In this document: positions 12,062 to 34,913 of the stretch, one piece after another
Numbering within the stretch: the first letter of the stretch is position 1
Layout: every line of letters begins with the position of its first letter
Virus record (IMG/VR): IMGVR_UViG_3300008993_000095
Span: 1 to 39,419 of that record
Source: a virus
Reading direction: 5' to 3' (one strand)
Length of the DNA: 39,419 nt
The notes under the pieces: model-generated
The model's input: the letters and a program-made list of their open reading frames with translations, nothing else
Database searches by the model: none
Told to the model about the DNA's origin: nothing
Position numbers and translations under genes: made by a program

Positions 12062-13552
12062 TTATATAGTTGACTTAAATAACACGAAGTTATTAGCAGC
12101 TTGTGTAACTAAACATCTTTCAGATAAGAAATTCACAGTCATTGCATCTAAATCAGAAGTGTAAGCACCTCCAACAGATCCAGTAACCCATGACTTCATT
12201 CTACGATCATCAGCTTCAGAAGCTCTATATCTTACATGTAAGAAAGGACGTCTGATATTAGATCCTAAACTTTGATCATAAACAGTTGATGTTCCAGCAG
12301 GAATCATTACACCATCGATGTCTCCGATTAATCCTCTTGTTGAAAAGTCATTTAGATATTTCCAGTCAGTCTTATAAAAATCATAAGAACCTCTTCTAAA
12401 TCCTGAAAATCCAAAATTCATTGCCATTTCAGCTTCGTTGTCAAAAAGACCGTAAGAAGCAGAAGCAGTAGAAGGAAATCCTCCACCAGCTTGAGCAGCA
12501 ATCATATCATCAAAATCAAGAGCAGTAGCTCTAGACAAGAATAACATGTTTTCTTCAATAGCACCTTGAGTATCTAATTGTTTTAGGATAGTATCAAAAT
12601 CACCTAAAGCACCAGATCCAGGAGCAGCAGCACCAGCGAAATCGTTATAAACGTTTCCTCTTGCTTCGATAGCAGCAAATAAACCTTCAGAACCAGGTCC
12701 ATTTTCATCAGCAGCAGGAGCGCCTAAACCTAAAGTAACCGCACCAGCAGCGCCATTATTAACAGCTTCAACCATAGACATTTCTAGGTAATCTTCAAAT
12801 CTTAATCTTGTTTCAGACTCAGACTTTAAATACCATAAGTATCCATTTGTTCCATCTTCAGTAGCAACTTCTACCCAACCAATTTGAGCTGTATCAGAAC
12901 CTGATACTTCAAACTTATCTCTTAAGATAATTGGCTTGTTAGAAAATTGTGTTAAAGTTGGCTCAATGCTAGACATTGCAGAGTAACCGGCAGTTCCGTC
13001 AGCAGCACCAGAGCCTTTAGCAAATTCAGAACCATACACAAATACTTTAACAACTGTACTAGCTAGCGCTGTTGCAGCAGCTACACCGTAGGTATCAAAA
13101 GCTACAGTAGAAACTAGTGGATTTCCAGCAGGAACTCCAGGAGCTGCATTTACTCTAGCTTTAAGAGTAGTTAATCCATCAGAAATAACTATTGTATTAC
13201 CAGCTTTTATAGCGCAAGTTTTATTAGCTTCAATTGGAACTGTCATTGACAGGCCATTAGCAGCTACAGTACAACCTTCGTAAGAAACGTGTAATCTATT
13301 TTGTTCAGACCAAATTACTTGATCAGATGTCATAGGCATTTCAGCGCCTACCATTCTCAAGAAACCACCTAAAGTTCGGTTTCCGTATCTTTCTACTTCT
13401 GCTTCGTAAAGCTCAGGTAGATATTGTTGTGCAAAGTTTCCACCAGTTGCATTGTCAAAACTCAAGTAATTAGACTGTAAAGTCATTTGAGTTTGATGAG
13501 GCAAAAGTGATGGAGGAAATGCATTTGTTGGGTTTAATGTTGCAAAACTCAT
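12062..13552 (-). CDS. Major capsid protein (HK97-fold type, inferred)
   Basis: 496 residues. It begins MSFATLNPTNAFPPSLLPHQ, continues with PELYEAEVERYGNRTLGGFL (an N-arm/helix typical of capsid proteins of this phage type) and ends in a beta-rich part with HVRYRASEADDRRMKSWVTG near residues 443-462. Ala/Gly-rich, without Cys-rich or enzymatic motifs. It follows portal and scaffold and is followed by a terminator, the classical position and expression design of a major capsid gene. An HK97 fold is expected for any tailed phage but is not shown by a motif here. The leader is A-rich (AAATAAAAGATAAAAC) with no Shine-Dalgarno. Confidence 0.85.
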   Translation of the reverse strand: MSFATLNPTNAFPPSLLPHQTQMTLQSNYLSFDNATGGNFAQQYLPELYEAEVERYGNRTLGGFLRMVGAEMPMTSDQVIWSEQNRLHVSYEGCTVAANGLSMTVPIEANKTCAIKAGNTIVISDGLTTLKARVNAAPGVPAGNPLVSTVAFDTYGVAAATALASTVVKVFVYGSEFAKGSGAADGTAGYSAMSSIEPTLTQFSNKPIILRDKFEVSGSDTAQIGWVEVATEDGTNGYLWYLKSESETRLRFEDYLEMSMVEAVNNGAAGAVTLGLGAPAADENGPGSEGLFAAIEARGNVYNDFAGAAAPGSGALGDFDTILKQLDTQGAIEENMLFLSRATALDFDDMIAAQAGGGFPSTASASYGLFDNEAEMAMNFGFSGFRRGSYDFYKTDWKYLNDFSTRGLIGDIDGVMIPAGTSTVYDQSLGSNIRRPFLHVRYRASEADDRRMKSWVTGSVGGAYTSDLDAMTVNFLSERCLVTQAANNFVLFKSTI

Positions 13553-17149: not shown

Positions 17150-19372
17150 TTATTTTATTTTTGAAACATAACCTGTGTTATCATATCTTTTAATGCCTAA
17201 GTTTATAGACTGTTTCTTTCTAGCAGCTACTGGTGTATACCTGTTCTTGTGACAAGCCATGATAGCTAAGCCAGAACTAATAGAAGCATCATGTTTTGTT
17301 CTATTATTTATATTAAATACAGCCCAATCTTCTAATGTACTTTGATGATACATATCACCATGTCCACTTTCTGTTGCTCCTACATGTTCTTCTATGTAAG
17401 ACTCTATAGCAGCAGCGTGTGCTTGCTTAATATCTTCACTTGAATTAGGTATTCCACCTATTTCTTTTTCAGTTACAGAAAGTTTGTTCCAAATTTTATC
17501 AGGACGATTAATTGAAAAACCTCTATAACCTCTACGCTTAAAATAATATAATAATCTAGGTTTATTATTCTCAGCTAGTATTGGCATACCATAAAACACA
17601 CAAGCCATAAGTACATCTTCAAAAAATATTTCAGCCGTTTGAGGTCTTGATATATATTCTAAGAAAAAGTGATTAGGTGGTGAATCTTCCATAGAAAACT
17701 TAGTTAATCCATGTAGTGAACCATTAGATCCTTTTCCATCTACAGTTCCAGAGATGTCATAACTATCACAACCAAATGCACCTATATGATCATTACCAGG
17801 GTATTTCCCATTATTTTTGTTAATTATTTTATTTTGCAAATTAACAGGTGGTACCCAACTTATTTTAAATCTACCATCTTTATTAGGAGAAAATATAACC
17901 TTACTATCTTTAATTCCGTTTTCCCACATGAAGCTACCCGTTGTTACAGCAGCTGCATTATTAGACTCTAAGTTGTAATCTATTTGTTGGTATATTTTAG
18001 TTAAGTTAAATAAACTTTCTTTAGCTTCATCTCTAAAGGCGTGCATTTCAGTTCTTGGAAACTGCCTGTAATATTCATTTAAACTGTCTTGATCGTTTCT
18101 TAAACCATCTACTTCGTTTTCCCAGTGTTCAATAACGCCTGTTGTAATGTCGTAACCGTCTGCTCCTTTGACGCTATCTTTTTCTCTAATGAAAACAGGT
18201 GATCCGTAAGAATCCATGAATCCTTCGTAGTTCCACTCCATAGGGATGAACATAGAATAGAGTCCAGAAGAAGTTTGTCCGTTACGATTTCTTTTTGTAA
18301 CGTCTGAATTATAGTATAACTTTTTGAAGTTGTTTCCACCTTTATCTAACGCGTTTGAAGTTGAGCCCATCATACACTTGCCTACGATTCTTGATCCTAG
18401 CCTTAGTGTTGTTTTTGTAACTCGCCAATTGTTTAATATGTTGTCCGGTCTTTCCCATTTTCCGCTTTCGTCGTGTGCTAATAATTTTAATTTCTCACCA
18501 TCGTAAGAGTTGTCACCAGTGTTTTTCCAGTCAATAGTTGTATCAAGCCCGTCAAGTTCTCTTAGTTGCTCATTACTCTCAAGCTTTCTTCTAGTAAGTT
18601 TTGAAGCCGGAACCCTATACGCCAGTTCTGTCTTAGGACGATCCATACCGTCTTGGATCGGCTTGAAGAAAAACGGATAGTTAACGGATATTGGCACGAC
18701 TTTATCTGTAAACATTTTTTTAGCATCTGATCCAGACTTAGATAATATACCGAATCTGGAGTCACTGGATATCGTCGCTTGATTAACAAGCTCTGCTGAG
18801 GACATAAATGAAAATCCAGACCTTCTGTTTTTAAGATAGCACATCCCGTAACATCTGTTATCTGCCTTGCATGCTTCCCAAAATATAAAGAATAATCTAT
18901 TTGCTTCTCTATAGTCTGGTGCTCCAACGTCGATCTTTGACCATTGTAAGTACATGTAATGAGTACCAGTAATATAAGTAGGTAAACCTTTATTATAAAA
19001 CCAAAACCCTTGATCTCTTCTTGTAAATTCTTTATCGATATAATCATACCACTTTTCTTTAAATTCAGTGTCATAATCTTCCCAGTCAAACCTTGATTTA
19101 ATTCTACTTAGTTCTTTTGGGTAATCTGCTTTTTCCCATCTTTGTTCCGCTTTTTCTTTGCTTCGTTTAAACGGTTCATTTGTTGCTGGTAAAGCAATCC
19201 TGAGATTTTGTATTTCAATGATTTGTCCAATTTGTCCAGTTTTACTTATTACTATAAAATCATAATCAGAGTTATAACCATACTCCCATTTTTTGAAACG
19301 ATTTTGTTTCTTTAACATCTTAGGGTTAACAATATCTTTAACTTCCTTCCAAAGCGTTTGCTCGTAACTCAT
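17150..19372 (-). CDS. terL: Terminase large subunit
   Basis: 740 residues. The packaging motor ATPase and nuclease. A degenerate Walker A is KNRRSGFSF at 181-189 (Arg-Arg in place of the usual Gly-Lys arrangement). Walker B is LLAHDE at 297-302, and a motif C/coupling segment GSTSN is at 336-340. The RNase H-like nuclease has the likely acidic residues D536 (GCDSYD), E601 and D695 (KHDASISSGLA). Length is at the large end for TerL. The start overlaps the 3' end of the small helical gene by 4 bases (ATGA), which supports that neighbour being the small subunit. The catalytic residues are my reading of motifs and are not experimentally known. Confidence 0.92.
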   Translation of the reverse strand: MSYEQTLWKEVKDIVNPKMLKKQNRFKKWEYGYNSDYDFIVISKTGQIGQIIEIQNLRIALPATNEPFKRSKEKAEQRWEKADYPKELSRIKSRFDWEDYDTEFKEKWYDYIDKEFTRRDQGFWFYNKGLPTYITGTHYMYLQWSKIDVGAPDYREANRLFFIFWEACKADNRCYGMCYLKNRRSGFSFMSSAELVNQATISSDSRFGILSKSGSDAKKMFTDKVVPISVNYPFFFKPIQDGMDRPKTELAYRVPASKLTRRKLESNEQLRELDGLDTTIDWKNTGDNSYDGEKLKLLAHDESGKWERPDNILNNWRVTKTTLRLGSRIVGKCMMGSTSNALDKGGNNFKKLYYNSDVTKRNRNGQTSSGLYSMFIPMEWNYEGFMDSYGSPVFIREKDSVKGADGYDITTGVIEHWENEVDGLRNDQDSLNEYYRQFPRTEMHAFRDEAKESLFNLTKIYQQIDYNLESNNAAAVTTGSFMWENGIKDSKVIFSPNKDGRFKISWVPPVNLQNKIINKNNGKYPGNDHIGAFGCDSYDISGTVDGKGSNGSLHGLTKFSMEDSPPNHFFLEYISRPQTAEIFFEDVLMACVFYGMPILAENNKPRLLYYFKRRGYRGFSINRPDKIWNKLSVTEKEIGGIPNSSEDIKQAHAAAIESYIEEHVGATESGHGDMYHQSTLEDWAVFNINNRTKHDASISSGLAIMACHKNRYTPVAARKKQSINLGIKRYDNTGYVSKIK

Positions 19373-19644
19373 TTGCTTCTCCCTTCAGCAAAACCTTTAA
19401 AAGTTTTTTGATCTTTAACTTCTTTAGGTTTTTCATTTAAAATATCTTCCTCTATTTGTATACGAGTTAATATTTCAAAAGCATCGAATATTGCTAATTT
19501 TTTTGTTGCAGCAGCATTTTTTAATCTATCAGCGCTTACATCGTCGTCTGAGTCTACAATCTTTTCTTTTGCTACTTTAATTAATTCTTCAACTGCTTTT
19601 TGCCCAGCTTGGATTATTTTCTTTTTCGTTTCCTTTATATTCAT
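19369..19644 (-). CDS. Probable terminase small subunit
   Basis: 91 residues, entirely helical and charged: MNIKETKKKIIQAGQKAVEE, then KNAAATKKLAIFDAFEILTR near residues 42-61. It lacks Cys. It ends with ATGA overlap on the terminase large subunit and begins inside the last 56 bases of the GroES-like gene. Small terminase subunits are usually the gene just before terL and are short helical DNA-binding proteins, which this matches in position, size and composition. No helix-turn-helix is obvious, so the call rests mainly on context. Confidence 0.6.
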   Translation of the reverse strand: MNIKETKKKIIQAGQKAVEELIKVAKEKIVDSDDDVSADRLKNAAATKKLAIFDAFEILTRIQIEEDILNEKPKEVKDQKTFKGFAEGRSK

Positions 19645-20182
19645 GGGTTAAAGCTATATCATTTGATTTCATACAATAAAGTCGTTCACCATCTATAATA
19701 AACTCAAATTCAGAGTTTGGGGTAAACGTAATAAGTGTTCCAGGTGTTATTCCTAGCGCTTCTAAGGTGTTGTTAGTATATTTCACTACACCAACGTTAG
19801 GTTGTTCTTTTCTGTTCTCTAAAAAATGGTTGTTTAAAATTGGTTTTATAAAGCAATAATCTAAGTGCGGTTTTAAGTTATACATGTAAATTTGCTCAGG
19901 AGAACAAAAGCACATATCATCTTTGAAGTAGGTAGAGCTATTACGTTCTCTTCCTTTTTGATCATACCATCTTCTAAAAACATTATGATGTATATAAACT
20001 TCATCACCAACTTTTATTTCTGTAGTATAAGCAGCTGGAGTAGAAACTACAACTGCTTTTTTACTTACAAAAATATGGTTTTCTATACTAGAGTTAATAA
20101 TTAATTCTTTATCATTAACTTTTTTAGTATTGTTATACCTATCTTCAAAAGGTTTAACAATAAAACTATATAGACTTTTCAT
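19589..20182 (-). CDS. Tandem GroES-like (co-chaperonin-like) protein
   Basis: 197 residues containing two GroES-like segments in one chain. Segment 1 (about 5-101) matches the phage's own GroES in order: FIVKPFEDR, a possible mobile loop around KELIIN (25-30), a V-rich strand (KKAVVVS), a GDEVYIHH turn (59-66) and a closing SPEQIYMY strand. Segment 2 (about 108-180) has CFIKPI, no obvious mobile loop, GVVKY, PGTLITFTP, IIDGERLYCM and SNDIAL. A GroES-like beta barrel in phages can be a co-chaperonin or a structural or regulatory adaptation. The gene lies between small hypothetical genes and the terminase, not beside groL, so the role is open. Confidence 0.6.
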   Translation of the reverse strand: MKSLYSFIVKPFEDRYNNTKKVNDKELIINSSIENHIFVSKKAVVVSTPAAYTTEIKVGDEVYIHHNVFRRWYDQKGRERNSSTYFKDDMCFCSPEQIYMYNLKPHLDYCFIKPILNNHFLENRKEQPNVGVVKYTNNTLEALGITPGTLITFTPNSEFEFIIDGERLYCMKSNDIALTHEYKGNEKENNPSWAKSS

Positions 20183-32677: not shown

Positions 32678-33112
32678 CTATCTGGTTTTATCTTTGTTAA
32701 CGTATTCTATTGACTTAGTAATTACCTTGTAACTATATCTATTACTTTTTTCTAATTTTTTAGTAGGCATATCTTCTTCGCCTAACATTATACGGTACAT
32801 GCGACTTATCAGCTGTTTGCACTTATATGAAACTTTGTATATGTGATATTTTTGAGTGGTGTGGTTTCTTTTACGCCACACTGTAATCCACCCTTGTTTC
32901 AATAATCTGTTCCAGCGCCTATTGTCCCAGCTGAATGAGTACGTACCTTTTATAAAATCATTTTTAGTAAACATATCTATAGCGTCAAGATATATTAATA
33001 ACTCTAGTTCTGCATCGTTTAAGTCATTAGTTTTACAAGCCCATTTTCTAATTATTCTATAATGCTTAAGTAAACCTAGTTCTTTTAAATCACTAGATAT
33101 TAATTTTCTCAT
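32678..33112 (-). CDS. Putative winged-helix (MarR-like) protein
   Basis: 144 residues. Helical N-terminal part (LLKHYRIIRKWACKTNDLND), another helical block (ELELLIYLDAIDMFTKNDFI), a probable recognition helix (SWDNRRWNRLLKQGWITVWR) and a basic beta-hairpin-like segment (RKRNHTTQKYHIYKVSYKCK) give the order of a winged helix-turn-helix. Very Arg/Lys/Trp-rich. I recall similar proteins in marine Bacteroidota phages annotated MarR-like. It directly follows GroES with ATGA-type overlap (ATG at 33112). It may regulate the late genes or be packaged with DNA. No ligand-binding domain is visible. Confidence 0.6.
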   Translation of the reverse strand: MRKLISSDLKELGLLKHYRIIRKWACKTNDLNDAELELLIYLDAIDMFTKNDFIKGTYSFSWDNRRWNRLLKQGWITVWRKRNHTTQKYHIYKVSYKCKQLISRMYRIMLGEEDMPTKKLEKSNRYSYKVITKSIEYVNKDKTR

Positions 33113-33369
33113 AATATAATAACTACATCAAACTCTTTAATAACTTTATATTCTTCTTTATTTATTTCTATTTTAAATCCAGATGATTTATCGTAATAAA
33201 TTTCATCACCTTTTTTTAAAACAGATACATCAGAGCCAGGTTCTATAACCTTAGCTCTTCTATATCTAATATCTTCTCTTTGCTTCTCAGCTAAGATTAA
33301 TCCACCTTTTGTAGTTACATCAGTTTCCTTGACTGGATCTATAACTATAAATTTACCTACTGCTTTCAT
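33109..33369 (-). CDS. groS: GroES-type co-chaperonin
   Basis: 86 residues, shorter than the usual ~95 of bacterial GroES. The order of elements is complete: FIVIDPVKETD (7-17), mobile loop with GGLIL (22-26), an IRYRRAKVIEPG strand (34-45), a GDEIYY turn (54-59), and the closing EEYKVIKEFDVVIIL. The mobile-loop GGLIL corresponds to the GGIVL tripeptide region of E. coli GroES that binds GroEL. It lies directly after groL and overlaps its stop (ATGA), so the two are translationally coupled and presumably made in matching amounts. Confidence 0.92.
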   Translation of the reverse strand: MKAVGKFIVIDPVKETDVTTKGGLILAEKQREDIRYRRAKVIEPGSDVSVLKKGDEIYYDKSSGFKIEINKEEYKVIKEFDVVIIL

Positions 33370-34913
33370 GCTCTAATGTTGTTAATAACACAATCAGTAG
33401 ATAATATTGTTGTGGCTACTGAGGCTGCGTTCATTAGTGCACTTTTAGTAACTAGCAAAGGATCTATAATTCCGGCTTTTACCATATCAACCGTATTTCC
33501 TGTAACCACATCTAATCCCGTGCCTTCTACTTCTGGTGTTTTATAATCTTCAACGCCAGCATTTTTAAGTATCAATTTATAAGGCTCCTTAATAGCACAG
33601 TAAAGTACTTCTTCGCCTATTGACATTGGTTCTAATTGCTGTGCAGCGTTTAATAAAGCTATACCACCTCCTGGCACTATACCTTCTTTGATCGCAGCTT
33701 TTGTAGCACAAATAGCATCTTCTACTCTATCTCTTTTTTCTTTTAATTCCATTTCAGAATTAGCCCCAACTTTAACTGTAGCAACTTTAGCTTTTAGTTT
33801 AGCTAATCGTTTCTCTAGCCTAATTACTATATTAGGGTTTTTAGTTTCTTTAATTTGATCTTCTAATAACTTAATAATATCTTTAACGTCTTCGTTACTA
33901 GATAAATCAACTTGCATAATAGTTTCTTCATGATTAGTAACAGATCTTAGACAAGTTCCTAAGTGCTCTGGATCTATAATATCCATATCATCACCTAGAT
34001 CTTCATTAATTAGTTTAGCACCAGTAACCGCGCATAAATCACTTAGAGTATCCTTTTTACTAATACCATAAACCGGTGCATCTATAATGTTAACCTTTAT
34101 GTTTCCTTTTACTTTGTTCATTGAAAGTGCTGAAACTACTTGAGGGTCAACATCCGCTATTATAAGCAAACTTTTACCTGTCTTTATTACATGTTCAAGA
34201 ACTGACTGAATCTTCCGCACGTTGGGTATTACTGATTCTACGATTAGAACCAACGGATTTTCAAGTTCAGCCGTGCCCTTTTCCTTATTGGTAATGAAGT
34301 GGTTGTTTTTCAAGGGCTGATCATACTGCACGCCTTCTATTAACTCAACTACTGTTTCAGGCTGTTCGTTTGTTTCCATCATAACAATACCTGTTTCGTC
34401 TACTAATCTAAACGCTTCACCTATAACCTTCCCAAGCTCTTTGTCATTGTTGGCTGATATTGTAGCCACTTGGTCAATCTTTTTACCTTTTACTTTCTTT
34501 GATGCTTTTTCTAAATAAGCTAATACTTTCTTAACGCCTGAGTCAATACCTTCTTTTAATTCTCTTGAAGTATCTAATTCACTGTGTTTATAAGCCTCGT
34601 CTAAAATAGCTTTTGCTAGTACTGTAGCAGTCGTAGTACCGTCACCTGCGTCTGATACTGTTCTTTGTGCTGCTTGTTTTATTAACGTAGCTCCAATATT
34701 TTCTAAAGAATCTTGTAATGTAACTGCGTTAGCTACTGTTACTCCATCTTTTGTTATCTGTGGCATACCATTTGCGTCTTCTAATATAACACATTTACCA
34801 CTTGCTCCTAAAGTTGATCCTACTGCATTAGTAAGTTTTTCAACTCCAGTTAATATCTGACTTCTGGCACCATCACCAAAAGCCAGATTTTTAACTAACT
34901 TTATTTCTTGCAT
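33366..34913 (-). CDS. groL: GroEL-type chaperonin (phage-encoded)
   Basis: 515 residues, against 548 for E. coli GroEL. Two-ring chaperonin that folds proteins with ATP and GroES. ATP-site segments are present: TLGASGK (34-40, E. coli has TLGPKGR), ITKDGVTVA, DAGDGTTTATVLA with D91 equal to D87, and RVEDAI with D399 equal to catalytic D398. The C-terminus ends NNIRA with no GGM repeat tail. Several apical hydrophobic residues are changed (see findings). Order is groL then groS, inverse to bacterial operons. The leader is AAATTAAATTAA with no Shine-Dalgarno. Phage capsid or fibre proteins are likely clients; this is inference. Confidence 0.95.
   Translation of the reverse strand: MQEIKLVKNLAFGDGARSQILTGVEKLTNAVGSTLGASGKCVILEDANGMPQITKDGVTVANAVTLQDSLENIGATLIKQAAQRTVSDAGDGTTTATVLAKAILDEAYKHSELDTSRELKEGIDSGVKKVLAYLEKASKKVKGKKIDQVATISANNDKELGKVIGEAFRLVDETGIVMMETNEQPETVVELIEGVQYDQPLKNNHFITNKEKGTAELENPLVLIVESVIPNVRKIQSVLEHVIKTGKSLLIIADVDPQVVSALSMNKVKGNIKVNIIDAPVYGISKKDTLSDLCAVTGAKLINEDLGDDMDIIDPEHLGTCLRSVTNHEETIMQVDLSSNEDVKDIIKLLEDQIKETKNPNIVIRLEKRLAKLKAKVATVKVGANSEMELKEKRDRVEDAICATKAAIKEGIVPGGGIALLNAAQQLEPMSIGEEVLYCAIKEPYKLILKNAGVEDYKTPEVEGTGLDVVTGNTVDMVKAGIIDPLLVTKSALMNAASVATTILSTDCVINNIRA

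Follow-up and report, generated by a model that had tools for sequence, protein, structure and literature searches.

A phage-encoded groL-groS gene pair predicted to form a group I chaperonin with a roof-reduced lid

The groL-groS gene pair

The window analysed here, i.e. the whole stretch of 39,419 bases of an IMG/VR-type sequence from a marine bacterial virus, encodes both subunits of a chaperonin on its minus strand. The groL gene (33366-34913), which encodes a GroEL/Cpn60 chaperonin of 515 aa, comes first and is followed by groS (33109-33369), which encodes a GroES/Cpn10 co-chaperonin of 86 aa. Both frames are open at full length, and the stop codon of groL and the start codon of groS share the 4 bases of an ATGA overlap (33366-33369). 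The predicted GroEL matched PF00118 with 180.9 bits (cut-off 34.3; 5e-53) over positions 1-488 of 490 and phrog_5725 with 6.5e-131, and its ATPase residues were conserved. Judged from its sequence, by this full-length match and the intact ATP-site signature, it is a group I chaperonin. The GroES was recognised by PF00166 (42.6 bits, cut-off 21.1; 6e-11) and by its AlphaFold2 model and PDB matches.

When IMG/VR was scanned with a single protein, 67 loci were found with a GroEL 73-99% identical to that of the window, and the identical 4-base overlap and gene order were seen in all 65 close relatives that reach groS. Both genes were under purifying selection (median dN/dS 0.11 for groL and 0.15 for groS). 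A frameshift, which the first-pass annotation had named as a possible refutation, or an assembly artefact was ruled out because of the 67 independent contigs carrying groL, the overlap identical in 65/65 and the purifying selection. Its description of an intact GroEL and a complete GroES in inverted order with an ATGA overlap was confirmed by the open frames, the Pfam and PHROG matches and these 65 relatives.

A different pattern of divergence was observed in three contigs (L005 4470-4730, L015 7548-7808 and L016 7041-7301), where groS was about 70% identical to window positions 33109-33369 and 97-98% identical from one contig to another. Their groL was 89-98% and their downstream flank about 90% identical to the window, and the mobile loop was nearly unchanged despite the divergent groS. 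The alignment suggests a local exchange of groS by recombination.

Gene order in related phages and in bacteria

Wider scans added about 170 more distant contigs with the same order, giving about 240 related viral contigs in all, in which groS, where found, was downstream of groL. Among the next relatives groS was downstream on the same strand in 77/77, and among Elemovirus-type loci in 13/14, the remaining locus stopping at the contig edge. The order was also found in 79 of 81 MW202828-type sequences, which comprise MW202828 (Podoviridae sp. ctfjg026, Manatee Spring) and 80 related IMG/VR contigs; here groS often lies 0.1-3.5 kb from groL with other genes between. Because these phages tolerate genes between groL and groS, tight coupling of the two genes is not essential, and a functional meaning of the order itself is at most hypothetical.

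The bacterial order, said in the first-pass annotation to be normally groES-groEL, was indeed groS-groL in 49 of 50 Bacteroidota loci, with no groS seen in one truncated locus. The groS-groL order was also found in immuto and Bacteroides phage SJC03. The Cellulophaga phages phi38:1 and Calle (Pervagoviridae) encode, like the window, their own GroEL, a Cpn10 and a tandem GroES-like gene, but their order is cpn10, a small ORF and groEL, beside replication genes. In phi38:1 the small ORF is a hypothetical gene of 90 aa (gp006; L071 2729-3001), which was not recognised by the GroES profile. No recognisable groS was found near groL in the Vibrio phages examined.

The inverted order is not new, since it is shared by MW202828 and by public isolates of Elemovirus (Flavobacterium phage vB_FspP_elemo, e.g. 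MT497071), in whose database records an annotated GroEL/GroES pair is found in groL-groS order. The Elemovirus genes abut or overlap as in the window, and their products are 38% (GroEL) and 35% (GroES) identical to those of the window. Many phages encode only GroES, some both subunits and few only GroEL (PMC7185714). The earlier view that a matched pair is uncommon thus holds for phages generally, where the pair is not the commonest state; within this lineage it is the rule. GroEL has been reported in 36 environmental genomes of a marine Bacteroidetes phage group including phi38:1 (Nishimura et al. 2017; PMC5332604), and both GroEL and GroES are mentioned in a paper on Maribacter phages (PMC11590407).

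Predicted structure of the lid and the barrel

A Cpn10 fold was predicted for the window GroES with high AlphaFold2 confidence (pLDDT 91, single-chain model), and the best 28 matches of this model in the PDB were all Cpn10/GroES, the top one being a GroES with a TM score of 0.79. By alignment, the mobile loop covers residues 17-36 (33262-33321, minus strand), with the GGLIL tripeptide at 22-26; in 81 sequences G23 was invariant and L24 and L26 were at least 90% conserved. The mobile-loop span is 27 residues against 24 in E. coli, i.e. 3 residues longer, and the roof region, residues 44-52 (33214-33240, minus strand), is reduced to 9 residues compared with 18 in E. coli and 12-18 in Bacteroidota. 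The window GroES therefore combines the two features of a Gp31-type lid, a reduced roof and a lengthened mobile loop. In phage T4, the missing roof loops and longer mobile loop of Gp31 are held responsible for a larger cage, and these differences are held to let the 56-kDa capsid protein gp23 fit and fold (PMC6318259). The same paper gives about 194,000 cubic angstrom for the GroEL-GroES cavity. Gp31 was found as a structural match (1g31, E 2.5e-3). It differs from the window protein in that T4 has no GroEL of its own, and at 13% identity the window lid is nearer to bacterial Cpn10 by both sequence and fold. A short roof (span 9) was also found in a GroES-like protein of Bacteroides phage SJC03 that is annotated as hypothetical (L075 2724-2987). 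Because SJC03 has this short roof despite its groS-groL order, roof loss looks convergent among phage lids as far as the alignments can tell.

In GroEL, the checked ATP-site residues were essentially invariant across the window clade. In E. coli numbering, the residues kept in the window were T30, G32, K51, D52, D87, G88, T89-T91, S151, D398, G414-G416 and D495, and the GDGTTT and GGG motifs were present; D398 corresponds to D399 of the window. In the apical groove F204, L237 and E238 are kept and other contacts are replaced (Y199L, Y203H, L234Q, V263S and V264M); since several apical contacts differ, the protein may bind its lid differently from GroEL and accept another range of clients. The C-terminus (33366-33389, minus strand) lacks the bacterial GGM-type tail, with 7 residues after E. 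coli position 520 compared with 24-26 in most Bacteroidota. As the GGM-type tail is a common and not an essential trait of group I, its absence was treated as a variant and not as an exclusion.

Differences were also found at the contact between rings. The pair R452-E461 was R/E in 47 of 49 Bacteroidota and mixed in the window clade (E/E, K/E, E/K and others). Its counterpart in the window lies in the equatorial segment K446-E455 (33549-33578, minus strand), placed by alignment, where a salt bridge is still possible because K446 and E455 are present; the alignment near 461 is uncertain because of a deletion. Nearby loops are shortened, 421-440 having 13 residues instead of 20 and 457-475 having 13-14 instead of 19. 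The reduced roof, the longer mobile loop, the loss of the GroEL tail and the ring-ring change are common to the window clade. In Elemovirus, unlike the window, the mobile loop is not lengthened and T91 is replaced by G or C.

A tandem GroES-fold protein near the terminase

A second protein related to co-chaperonins by its predicted fold, with 197 aa, is encoded at 19589-20182 on the minus strand, just upstream of terL with one short ORF between. It belongs to phrog_13932, which is annotated as co-chaperonin GroES, and its score against PF00166 was 15.5 bits, below the cut-off. A sequence search against the PDB gave nothing useful and only fold comparison found a match, the best being Chlamydomonas Cpn20 (7ekq_R) over the full length with E 2.5e-6. 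Because the pLDDT of the model is 70, confidence in this tandem, Cpn20-like fold is moderate. Segments at or near both mobile-loop positions were of low confidence in the model, and a hydrophobic stretch in the first of them is kept in most relatives. Both the tandem protein and GroES are encoded in all 42 larger contigs checked (43-68 kb), as well as in phi38:1 and Elemovirus; the tandem gene lies near terL in Elemovirus too, and in Elemovirus, phi38:1 and Calle it stands directly before terL. The protein might be a second lid, a packaging protein or both.

Genomic context and host

The neighbours of the groL-groS pair are phage genes, encoding a tail fibre with an S74 chaperone domain, an amidase, a holin, the terminase, the portal and a run of virion structural proteins, and they share its direction. 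The called genes are co-directional with mostly small gaps, and lysis, terminase and head genes lie downstream of the pair. In the first-pass annotation the pair was assigned to a late phage operon. This is plausible for the window from the arrangement of its genes, but in Elemovirus the neighbours of the pair and terL lie on the other strand, so the pair is not co-expressed with virion genes in every case. Scans of the window for sigma-70-type promoters and for terminators gave no matches above chance, and TTTG-N17..23-TANNTTTG, a promoter motif of Bacteroidota, was absent from the minus strand of the window.

The large terminase subunit (17150-19372, minus strand; phrog_6681, 5e-164) was used for placing the phage. 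It was 64% identical to that of MW202828 and 45% identical to that of Elemovirus, and other matches came from Cellulophaga (including Pervagoviridae), Tenacibaculum and Maribacter phages. With matches of this kind, an assignment to Crassvirales was unsupported as such. Flavobacteriaceae are the hosts of the isolates with related terminases. In addition, a Flavobacteriaceae MAG bin (G001, the genome of locus L084) contains three contigs with a phage-type GroEL (C19, C47 and C59) besides its own GroEL, which either points weakly to the host or results from binning. Isolate hosts and MAG contigs together suggest Flavobacteriaceae as the host group.

Phylogenetic analysis

A maximum likelihood tree of GroEL was built with 67 taxa, in which the bacteria were Bacteroidota and two Gammaproteobacteria sequences; the very long branches of MaF61, phi14:2 and two Vibrio phages led to their exclusion from its final version. 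Two records filed as Acinetobacter phage MD-2021a and as a Salmonella contig (L083 and L138) turned out to be bacterial groESL sequence and were used only as bacterial controls. A branch with support 98/93 separated all groL-groS phages from all groS-groL sequences, bacterial and phage, and gene order needs a single change on this tree. Marine et al. (ISME J, 2017) reportedly linked the order of large- and small-subunit genes in virioplankton to GroEL phylogeny, and the present tree agrees with such a link. The branches of Elemovirus and of the MW202828-type sequences are long, and long-branch attraction between them may affect the tree. The GroEL of MW202828 (L002 4368-5996) is only about 33% identical to that of the window, below the more distant Elemovirus at 38%, despite the closer terminase. 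Going by these identities, the MW202828 branch could reflect a past GroEL replacement or faster evolution.

The AU test rejected trees in which the window clade was forced to group with Flavobacteriaceae (p 9.5e-6) or to be sister to Bacteroidota (p 3.3e-5). The GroES tree (85 columns) was poorly resolved, GroES being too short for a firm tree. A single clade of groL-groS phages was not recovered, yet it was not rejected (p 0.34), and grouping with Flavobacteriaceae was disfavoured (p 0.01). Of the two trees proposed in the first-pass annotation, that of GroEL with Bacteroidota and phage chaperonins thus placed the window outside the host clade, and that of GroES spoke against a Flavobacteriaceae grouping and left the phage clade poorly resolved. 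The claim that the pair was not simply copied from a host groESL operon was borne out by the GroEL tree and AU tests, which reject a Bacteroidota source; the gene order is also the reverse of the host operon. Sequence comparison therefore argues that the pair is inherited across a large virus lineage, and hence that it is an old viral machine and not a recent host copy.

Proposed function and alternative explanations

The reading that we favour, and consider likely, is that the pair encodes a working group I chaperonin of the phage, passed on vertically and equipped with a dedicated lid, which folds phage proteins in a somewhat enlarged cage. GroEL and its GroES lid would be made together from one message, with translation of groS probably coupled to that of groL because of the ATGA overlap. 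The cage would be somewhat larger than that of the host, given the reduced lid roof, the longer mobile loop and the missing GroEL C-terminal tail. By analogy with Gp31, we infer both this enlargement and a role for the phage's own large proteins as clients. These would be large or aggregation-prone, most likely capsid or other virion proteins, and the first candidate is a virion structural protein of 496 aa (12062-13552, minus strand; phrog_13704, 7e-87). The phage chaperonin would act beside or instead of host GroEL/ES. Complex formation between GroEL and GroES, client identity, translational coupling, timing, ring state and independence of host GroEL are the points that we infer in this proposal.

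A recent capture of a host groESL operon with later inversion of the gene order would account for a GroEL that is recognisably group I and whose closest sequence with a solved structure is an ancestral reconstruction of the Bacteroidetes group. This origin is nevertheless extremely improbable, as neither a grouping with Flavobacteriaceae nor one with Bacteroidota survived the AU tests, the groL-groS order is common to lineages whose GroELs are only 33-38% identical, and the clade-wide deletions in lid and barrel are absent from hosts. It is also conceivable that host GroEL is the main partner of the phage GroES, as it is of T4 Gp31, with the phage GroEL being secondary, held in reserve or mixed into rings with host subunits. 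The GGLIL tripeptide resembles host loops (SGIII, GGIIL), and Gp31, whose roof is reduced in a similar way, is a precedent for a lid acting on host GroEL (PMC6318259). However, the phage GroEL is more constrained than GroES (dN/dS 0.11 vs 0.15) and its ATPase site is complete, and both genes are kept together in essentially every checkable relative, a linkage which a lid-only role does not need. We regard such a take-over of host GroEL as quite unlikely.

Less easily set aside, though still rather doubtful, is a chaperonin that is single-ringed or separates its rings, as in the giant phages phiEL, OBP and AR9, but also uses GroES, so that the larger volume would come from ring separation and not from the lid. 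The mixed state of the R452-E461 pair in the window clade, compared with R/E in nearly all Bacteroidota, and the shortened loops 421-440 and 457-475 point in this direction, and phiEL and OBP form single-ring intermediates (PMC5934643). On the other hand, K446 and E455 of the window can still pair as a salt bridge, the double ring could have acquired a new interface in evolution, and the uncertain alignment near 461 weakens the comparison. The giant-phage chaperonins share with the window a phage-encoded GroEL and possibly weak ring-ring contacts; they are very divergent and have no known GroES (PMC7185714, PMC5934643), whereas in the window a GroES partner is retained and the group I signature is intact.

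If the favoured reading is right, a large lineage of aquatic viruses inherits a complete chaperonin with matched parts and does not owe it to an accidental capture of host genes. The lineage would also offer natural GroEL/GroES variants that lack parts whose roles were investigated in E. coli, namely the lid roof, the C-terminal tail and the ring-ring pair of bacteria. Since an Elemovirus isolate of Flavobacterium exists with the same arrangement, direct tests are possible of the reason for which certain phages carry an entire barrel and of a specialisation of lid and barrel for virion proteins. Further work seems most worthwhile on the Gp31-like lid, the changed contact between the rings and the possible second lid.

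The tandem protein further allows a speculative and on balance unlikely extension, a three-part chaperonin in which a GroEL with an altered ring-ring interface would work with two lids of differing geometries for different clients, the roof-reduced Gp31-like Cpn10 and the tandem Cpn20-like protein whose gene accompanies those for packaging. The chloroplast Cpn60 system with Cpn10 and Cpn20 similarly combines a single barrel with a one-domain lid and a lid-like protein of two tandem domains (PMC5780408), but in the phage the tandem protein is a putative lid and its gene is far from groL-groS. If true, two lids in the manner of Cpn10 and Cpn20 would exist together outside plastids, and this arrangement would be conserved across a large lineage of marine and freshwater viruses. 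Neither the tandem protein at 19589-20182 nor the way in which lid and barrel are structurally specialised was noted in the first-pass annotation.
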